DNA from: an uncultured Bacteroidales bacterium
GTDB taxonomy: Bacteria; Bacteroidota; Bacteroidia; Bacteroidales; Bacteroidaceae
Length of the DNA stretch: 51,405 nt
Direction: 5' to 3'
Assembly: GCA_902773055.1 (NCBI GenBank)
Contig: CACYCZ010000024.1
Span: 1-51,405, forward strand
In this document: in pieces, positions 1,696 through 39,337 of the stretch
How positions within the stretch are numbered: position 1 is the stretch's first letter
Layout of the letters: each line of letters begins with the position of its first letter
Program-made: the position numbers and the translations under genes
Notes under the pieces: generated by a model
Told to the model about the DNA's origin: nothing
What the model saw: the letters and a program-made list of their open reading frames with translations, nothing else
Database searches by the model: none

Positions 1696-1986
1696 AAGGA
1701 ATGACAAAATTAAACTCTCTCTTTATTATATTTTTTGCTATTTTTATGCAGGTTGCAGATGGGATAAGTGGAAAAAAAAGAATGTTGGCTTTTTAATGAT
1801 GCGTATTTAAGATAGCGCAGACGGAAATAAAAGAATGTCCTGCCGGCCTATGCAGAATATTGGGATGTAAAAAACAATATCAGTCTTTTCTTCTTGCTGA
1901 TGACGCGAATCTTCCCTGTATTTCTTTTAATAAATTTAACAGAAATTAAACTTTTTATATACGCCTGTATATAGTCTGAAAAATTC

Positions 1987-2066
1987 TCTGGCCTTGCAGT
2001 TTTTACTGGCAGGCCTGCGCGTTGAAACCGGCAGGCCTGTCAGCGAAAACGCGCAGGCCTGCAAAA
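1987..2066. repeat. Array of GCAGGCCTGC palindromes at 22-bp spacing (locus A)
   Basis: Three copies of a 10-bp palindrome (2009-2018 GCAGGCCTGC, 2031-2040 GCAGGCCTGT, 2053-2062 GCAGGCCTGC) start exactly 22 bp apart. A decayed fourth copy (1987-1996) keeps the GGCCT core in register. The 12-bp spacers are GCGTTGAAACCG and CAGCGAAAACGC. The array lies in the divergent region between spt and the lipid kinase. The same element occurs at 39106-39171. A C-tract/G-tract hairpin (2070-2100) follows. There is no coding content, and function is unknown. Confidence 0.85.
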
Positions 2067-2234
2067 ATCACCCCCCTGCAGAGTCTTCTGAAGAGGGGGT
2101 ATATTCTCAAGATTAATGCCTGCCAAGAATGTTAATTATTGTTAAATCTTTCAGATCTGACAGACTGAAGATAAATTGTCAGTACAGACAGGTTGTCATT
2201 CCCGATGCTTATCGTAAGATTTTGCTGTTGAAAG

Positions 2235-38959: not shown

Positions 38960-39105
38960 GTGAATTGTCGGATGGCTTATTCTGTTTGATGGGAAAAAGT
39001 TTCAAAAGTCCGAGCTGGACAGTATGTTTTTTTTACATCTGTTAACACACCTGAGAGTCTTCTTTCAGACCCTGTTCAGAAGGCCGTGTAGAGGGGGCAA
39101 ATTTT

Positions 39106-39171
39106 GCAGGCCTGCTGGTTTTTGCTGGCAGGCCTGCCAGTCTTAACTCGTAGGCCTGCCAGCAAAAACGC
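39106..39171. repeat. Array of GCAGGCCTGC palindromes at 22-bp spacing (locus B)
   Basis: Palindromes at 39106-39115 (GCAGGCCTGC), 39128-39137 (GCAGGCCTGC) and 39150-39159 (GTAGGCCTGC) start exactly 22 bp apart. The 12-bp spacers are TGGTTTTTGCTG and CAGTCTTAACTC. The trailing 12 bp, CAGCAAAAACGC, differs at one position from a locus A spacer and is close to an inverted copy of the first spacer here. It is the same family as 1987-2066. It lies about 160 bp upstream of dacB. Confidence 0.88.
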
Positions 39172-39337
39172 TCTGGGCAGCGAAATAAAACAGCCTTCAG
39201 AAACTCGTCGGGAAGTATGGTTTTATGGCTAAAATATAAATGATAATTAATATTGTTTAACAAAAATTTGCAATTCTGCCACTTGTTGTACTGCCATCGG
39301 AGCGATGCCTTTTGGGGTGTTTTTATATGGAGGATAA

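Follow-up and report, generated by a model that had tools for sequence, protein, structure and literature searches.

What do evenly spaced palindromes between two genes of an uncultured Bacteroidales bacterium belong to, and what might act on them? The preliminary description of the window (the whole stretch of DNA analyzed here, 51,405 nucleotides) had placed palindromes at 2009, 2031, and 2053, with a decayed one at 1987, at an exact 22-bp step, and these positions were borne out: GCAGGCCTGC was exact at 2009 and 2053 and carried one mismatch at 2031, while the palindrome at 1987 was decayed with GGCC still in register. The genes on either side of this array encode a class I/II aminotransferase (named spt earlier) and a DAGK/YegS lipid kinase. 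Genes for a D-Ala-D-Ala carboxypeptidase (S13) and an acetyltransferase flank a second array, with palindromes at 39106, 39128, and 39150. Matches to the palindrome with at most one mismatch numbered 8 in the window, compared to 1.14 expected in window shuffles, and 6 of the 8 fell in the two arrays. For the pair pattern AGGCCTG-N15-AGGCCTG with at most two mismatches, 10 matches were observed in the window against 0.27 expected. Across the whole source genome (a draft of 2,615,603 bases in 153 contigs, 95% complete), the exact pair pattern gave 113 + 105 matches and its reversed control 0 + 0, so that the arrays are not a product of chance, as had been argued from the window.

A sequence-only profile (R1), built from 26 copies of the element, gave at least 150 matches on both strands of the source genome (150 of 651 candidates scored), which collapsed by hand to at least 81 places. 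The recurrence at 39106, taken earlier as a sign of a dispersed family, is thus one instance of many. Aligned by position, the 78 of 81 places complete enough to profile share one order: a TTAACA-N4-TTAACA box, about 30 bp of random sequence, the leader, a C5/G5 hairpin of the type CCCCCTTCAGAAGGCACTGTAGAGGGGG, then AAATTTT and dyads at 0, 22, 44, and 66. Beyond the fourth dyad, an A/T tail leads into some 22 bp of random sequence, and TTAA boxes in inverted orientation, phased at 10 to 11 bp, close the element, whose total length is about 225 bp. Window copy 1 accordingly occupies roughly 1924 to 2148, about three times the length of the palindrome array first noticed. The two window copies contain the following features.

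1924 to 1957, minus strand: inverted outer boxes at the far end of copy 1, with TTAA repeats phased at 10 to 11 bp
1987 to 1996, minus strand: decayed dyad P4 of copy 1, GGCC in register (from its register with P1 to P3)
2009 to 2018, minus strand: dyad P3 of copy 1 (palindrome match)
2031 to 2040, minus strand: dyad P2 of copy 1, one mismatch (palindrome match)
2053 to 2062, minus strand: dyad P1 of copy 1, GCAGGCCTGC, in an element reading on the minus strand (palindrome match)
2070 to 2098, minus strand: leader hairpin of copy 1 (family alignment and folding)
2099 to 2129, minus strand: spacer of copy 1, fixed in length and random in sequence between copies (copy-identity comparison)
2130 to 2148, minus strand: outer box of copy 1, TTAACA-N4-TTAACA type (family alignment and box count)
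39032 to 39047, plus strand: outer box of copy 2, TTTACA-N4-TTAACA (by eye, from family box positions)
39070 to 39098, plus strand: leader hairpin of copy 2, with a weaker 5' arm
39106 to 39115, plus strand: dyad P1 of copy 2 (palindrome match)
39128 to 39137, plus strand: dyad P2 of copy 2 (palindrome match)
39150 to 39159, plus strand: dyad P3 of copy 2, one mismatch (palindrome match)
39172 to 39181, plus strand: decayed dyad P4 of copy 2, with a TGGGCA core (from its register)
39245 to 39262, plus strand: possible far-end box of copy 2, weak (by eye)

The 22-bp step is kept genome-wide: of the 78 copies, 73 carried GGCC exactly in register at all of the first three dyads and 39 at the fourth, where another 16 had GGGC. 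None of the 78 had GGCC at the next 22-bp position outward on either side, and from -170 to +260 no conservation was seen beyond the element in the aligned copies. Further out, the only motif was TAnnTTTG, which we take to be promoter-like and which belongs to the neighboring genes. Mean identity between copies was 0.75 for the array and 0.63 for the hairpin, compared to 0.40 to 0.42 for the boxes (0.32 when shuffled) and 0.29 for both random spacers (0.25 to 0.27 when shuffled; 0.265 for the 30-bp left spacer). This contrast indicates that modules and distances are kept while the intervening letters are not. The TTAACA-N4-TTAACA pattern occurred 80 times within 200 bp of arrays and 8 times outside that range, in loci that partly overlap and total about 0.47 Mb, and the boxes are therefore part of the element. 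The 12-bp spacers inside the array fall into recurrent types common to several loci. A CRISPR array was rejected on these grounds, since its spacers would be unique and about 30 bp long. The right end (+62 to +81) was seen in two subtypes, CTGCAAGGCCTGAGAATTTTTC and CGCTCTGGGCAGAGAAAAAA, and window copy 2 has the second.

The search proposed earlier, for the same palindrome in related genomes, found the exact array pattern in none of 18 other genomes of the same genus; in two other genera the step is kept with altered palindromes. Among 301 genomes of the family searched with R1 (E 1e-4, strict filters), only the source genome and G115, from another genus, matched. At the G115 loci, a leader hairpin similar to that of the source genome precedes GAGTGCGCACTC dyads joined by linkers of GGCC type, and the 27 arrays found with R1 (26 with four dyads, one with three) had a step of 22 in 80 of 80 cases. 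A scan of 365 kb of G115 by the dyad alone recovered 22 arrays in which all steps were likewise 22; these held 2 to 7 dyads each (four in 15 of the 22), and the leader adjoined about 12 of them as judged by eye. The leader-arm pattern, searched in 399 genomes, gave counts of 15 in the source genome and 34 in G115, with 8 as the next highest; because the reversed control reached 22 in one genome, we used these two high counts only. Positions common to the source genome and G115 were considered and rejected: 2 of 29 G115 loci, some of which overlap, share a flanking gene (about 74% identity), and about two such genes are expected by rough reckoning.

In a third genus, G218 carries dyads of the form GAAGGCCTTC, separated by 12-bp spacers that vary. 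Its steps equaled 22 in 64 of 65 cases in 357 kb (18 to 26 allowed) and in 55 of 55 on two contigs (19 to 25 allowed), the two sets having one array in common. The G218 pair pattern gave 240 matches, compared to 1 for its control, and none in 12 other genomes of its genus. This genome was found by searching for the AGGCCT core, and it therefore shares that core with the source genome by ascertainment. Three AGGCCT with free gaps of 10 to 25 matched 26 of 399 family genomes, with counts of 121 in G218, 94 in the source genome, 44 in G116, and 30 in G093; the reversed control matched some 50 of the 399 by eye, with up to 19 per strand, and for this reason only counts of at least 30 were used. 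The stretches of G093 and G116 hold too few arrays for statistics, and some other genomes had steps of 20 to 24. At the level of the order, 10 of 393 genomes matched, the source genome included, and the rest mostly lacked the 22-bp step. Loci in named Prevotella and Paraprevotella, among the matches listed, were found with the 22-bp pattern itself, so their period proves nothing; their names support reading the family as the GTDB Bacteroidaceae. All genomes except that of Escherichia coli are drafts, with G115 84% and G218 56% complete. Three palindrome families in three genera have one geometry, with an exact 22-bp step and mostly three to four dyads in intergenic DNA. Two further observations concern other palindromes. 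The reversed core TCCGGA, itself a palindrome, occurred 8 to 19 times per strand in five genomes of one genus (G096, G275, G294, G310, and G324), where other palindrome arrays may exist. Arrays of CAAAGTGTAGGCCTGCACTTAC type with a 22-bp step were seen outside Bacteroidales, in a metagenome-assembled genome labelled Streptococcaceae (Nc350_bin195).

The intergenic location described for the first array extended to the family. Coding potential exceeded the random median in only 6 of 55 arrays of the source genome, 0 of 19 in G115, and 0 of 53 in G218. Gene calls were crude open reading frames (ORFs); 19 of 78 source-genome arrays overlapped some ORF of at least 90 codons, and ORFs of at least 100 codons contained 20 of 30 G218 arrays, which coding potential contradicts. 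Coding potential was preferred, and on its basis we consider the arrays intergenic despite these overlaps. In the source genome, the arrays form a family of about 80 intergenic elements, specific to the species and fixed in architecture. Elements appeared enriched between divergent genes at first sight (38 of 71), and this candidate was dropped because the enrichment was gone against a background of long intergenic regions (24 of 50 elements, compared to 11 of 34 gaps of at least 150 bp and 8 of 15 of at least 250 bp; 4 of 21 in G115).

The copies are also more evenly placed than chance would have it in both the source genome and G218. The 29 within-contig gaps of the source genome had a minimum of 5,270 bp, which none of 5,000 simulations reached (p<0.001), and no gap was below 5 kb, compared to 7.6 expected by random placement. 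With gene-like candidate sites, the expected number dropped only to 6.2 to 7.2 (p 0 to 0.0003). In G218, the 18 gaps on eight fully listed contigs had a minimum of 3,694 (p 0.0004 to 0.0008), with one below 5 kb against 7.4 to 8.0 expected; these gaps rest on the exact pattern, and degenerate arrays that it missed would shrink them. Two long G218 contigs gave a minimum gap of 3,563 (pooled p 0.007), and on one of them alone the minimum was unremarkable (p 0.20) and the gaps were even (CV p 0.005). Ten gaps in G115 ranged from 4.6 to 21.7 kb. In the source genome, 8 of the 29 gaps measured 9.1 to 10.7 kb, a possible preferred distance.

The explanation that we favor, tentatively, is that each array presents its dyads in a fixed geometry to a putative dimeric DNA-binding protein. 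Each element would form one nucleoprotein site, in which three to four extended dyads of about 18 bp (ACTGGCAGGCCTGCCAGT type), set at an exact 22-bp step, would align dimers of one protein along much the same side of the helix. The leader, able to form a hairpin, would adjoin this site, and phased TTAACA boxes would bound it at both ends. With 11 bp per turn, as in underwound DNA, a step of 22 bp makes two turns. The protein would bind the dyads and change along with them, the copies would have spread by a copying process, and the array, rather than being inert, may act on the surrounding DNA as a domain boundary, insulator, or regulator. That the copies must have spread follows from the lack of elements in the sampled sister genomes. 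Several observations weigh against a dyad-binding protein. Turnover of the palindrome is partial, with AGGCCT in both the source genome and G218 and GGCC-type linkers in G115, the number of dyads varies in G115, where the leader stands next to only about half of the arrays found by dyad, and the minimum gap on one long G218 contig is no larger than expected.

The preliminary description had allowed for either a repeated protein-binding site or a transcript folding into serial hairpins, and of these the former fits better. In the latter case, a transcribed leader and array would fold as a short and a long hairpin that stabilize, terminate, or regulate transcripts. The fold of window copy 1 as RNA is strong (-64 kcal/mol, z -6.65), the RNAalifold consensus contains the long hairpin with both-sided change in 5 of 23 pairs, and spacers S1 and S3 of the consensus complement each other (0.73, compared to 0.42 when slid). 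Covariation of the arms within copies was nevertheless weak, at 0.729 against 0.713 when shuffled (z 2.5 for the spacers and 2.0 for the whole stem), and the covariation term was -0.18. The central spacer is found in both orientations, the two random spacers of the source genome showed no clear pairing with each other, and in the window no Rfam family reached its gathering threshold. Nor did the spacers on the two sides of the central G218 dyad pair with each other: their interior columns gave 0.36, about chance (63 triples). There, the dyad continues into the three outermost bases at each spacer end, and the spacer middles vary. Since the G218 dyads extend into the spacer edges while the middles are unpaired, binding at dyads is favored over a long hairpin, and we regard an RNA element as very doubtful.

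The period itself could have another source, as in a minisatellite, where slippage or repair duplication of about 22 bp would make the arrays and the palindromes would be kept by chance or by folding. With the main motifs removed, a 22-bp period was present in 26 of 32 unrelated G218 arrays of at least three copies and in 14 of 44 in G115; among G218 intergenic tandem repeats without the two main motifs, it was found in 39 of 64 unit families. The period of the dyads may thus reflect a repeat-making process, which also counts against the dyad-protein reading, and the varying array length in G115 would suit duplication. Repeats of 22, 23, and 41 nucleotides are reported for Porphyromonas gingivalis (PMC4596501). 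The sister genome G014 had period 22 in 2 of 14 tandem arrays, and 150 kb of E. coli K-12 contained one array of period 14 to 40, with period 21. In the source genome, however, period 22 is present only through the element, the four positions with random spacers are unlike the products of tandem duplication, and the leader and boxes lie outside the repeat. We consider a minisatellite origin improbable.

A further rival is a non-autonomous mobile element, a MITE or REP akin to the published BrickBuilt and PINSR repeats, mobilized in trans by a transposase that is now lost or unrecognized. The geometry would then be what the transposase binds, and the even spacing would result from target immunity, a point that also counts against the dyad-protein reading. 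Consistent with this rival, the inverted TTAACA boxes at both ends are terminal inverted repeats, albeit short and degenerate ones, about 80 copies occur in one species against none of the exact array in the genus genomes, and a like leader hairpin is present in the distant genus of G115. Moreover, four of five syntenic intergenic regions were 333 to 441 bp longer than in the sister G014. This extra length exceeds the element, though, one of the five regions was only 86 bp longer, and no clean joint was found. Target duplications of 3 to 9 bp around 77 elements were not above shuffled pairing, save for a marginal case at 5 bp (6 of 77 at the best boundary, compared to at most 5 in 20 shuffles), where the boundary lies inside the boxes. 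The internal spacers share no sequence between copies. The Y1 transposase PF01797, the sole transposase family searched for, was not found in the genome, and a RAYT/REP origin was rejected on 0 matches in the 95%-complete draft; a control search matched 5 of 14 known genomes. Elements at three loci (L107, L128, and L153) have a similar right flank of about 250 to 300 bp, the only sign of copied flanks, which perhaps reflects duplicated genes. On balance, we rate a mobile origin as possible and somewhat unlikely.

Several known systems resemble the dyad arrays in part. REP, REPIN, and BIME sequences are dispersed intergenic palindromes of species-specific sequence; unlike them, the present element has a 22-bp array of four dyads, a leader, and end boxes, and no RAYT gene was found. 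The parS, matS, Noc, and SlmA sites are genome-wide palindromes for a dimer, and to our knowledge they are single sites without 22-bp arrays or a leader hairpin. Searches of open-licence papers turned up no account of dyad arrays with an exact 22-bp step, or of how such arrays are spaced; the closest published systems among the results were BrickBuilt (PMC4596501) and PINSR (PMC4755523). BrickBuilt, a MITE of P. gingivalis, is reported to have 1 to 22.8 similar 23-nt units without spacers in 19 copies; its ends are IS5-like (GAGACCTTTGCA), and direct repeats flank some copies (PMC4596501). As described there, it is likewise intergenic and species-limited, with a leader, short tandem units, a tail, inverted ends, long predicted stem-loops, and a period of about two turns. 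In contrast to that description, the element here has four positions, variable 12-bp spacers, a 22-bp step, about 80 copies, and TTAACA ends, and the IS5-like end GAGACCTTTGCA occurred near the 77 elements (at most two mismatches) 4 times, with 4.0 expected. PINSR of Prevotella intermedia and Prevotella nigrescens is a 188-bp intergenic repeat with 177 to 184 copies, limited to a few related species and reported without terminal inverted repeats and with function unknown (PMC4755523). By description alone, it is similar as an intergenic repeat of limited species range and differs in that the present element has inverted TTAACA ends.

The dyad-protein reading can be extended beyond one genome. 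Some Prevotella-like Bacteroidaceae might mark their chromosome with same-face dyad arrays, placed more evenly than at random, at gaps of about 4 to 45 kb. A dimeric protein that evolves fast would bind them, and each species would have its own palindrome around a GGCC-type core, with the 22-bp step kept in all. We consider this broader proposal unlikely as it stands, and our confidence in both it and the preferred reading is slightly lowered by the AGGCCT core common to the source genome and G218 and by the variable number of dyads in G115. Species-specific intergenic repeats are usually dismissed as decayed mobile DNA. The geometry common to three genera, together with the over-dispersion in two of them, is hard to obtain from decay alone, and points to a shared nucleoprotein or repeat-making machine. 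If the proposal is true, these bacteria would have a chromosome-domain or insulator system whose geometry is inherited more faithfully than its sequence. The approximately 80 known sites make questions about chromosome domains in Bacteroidales testable.
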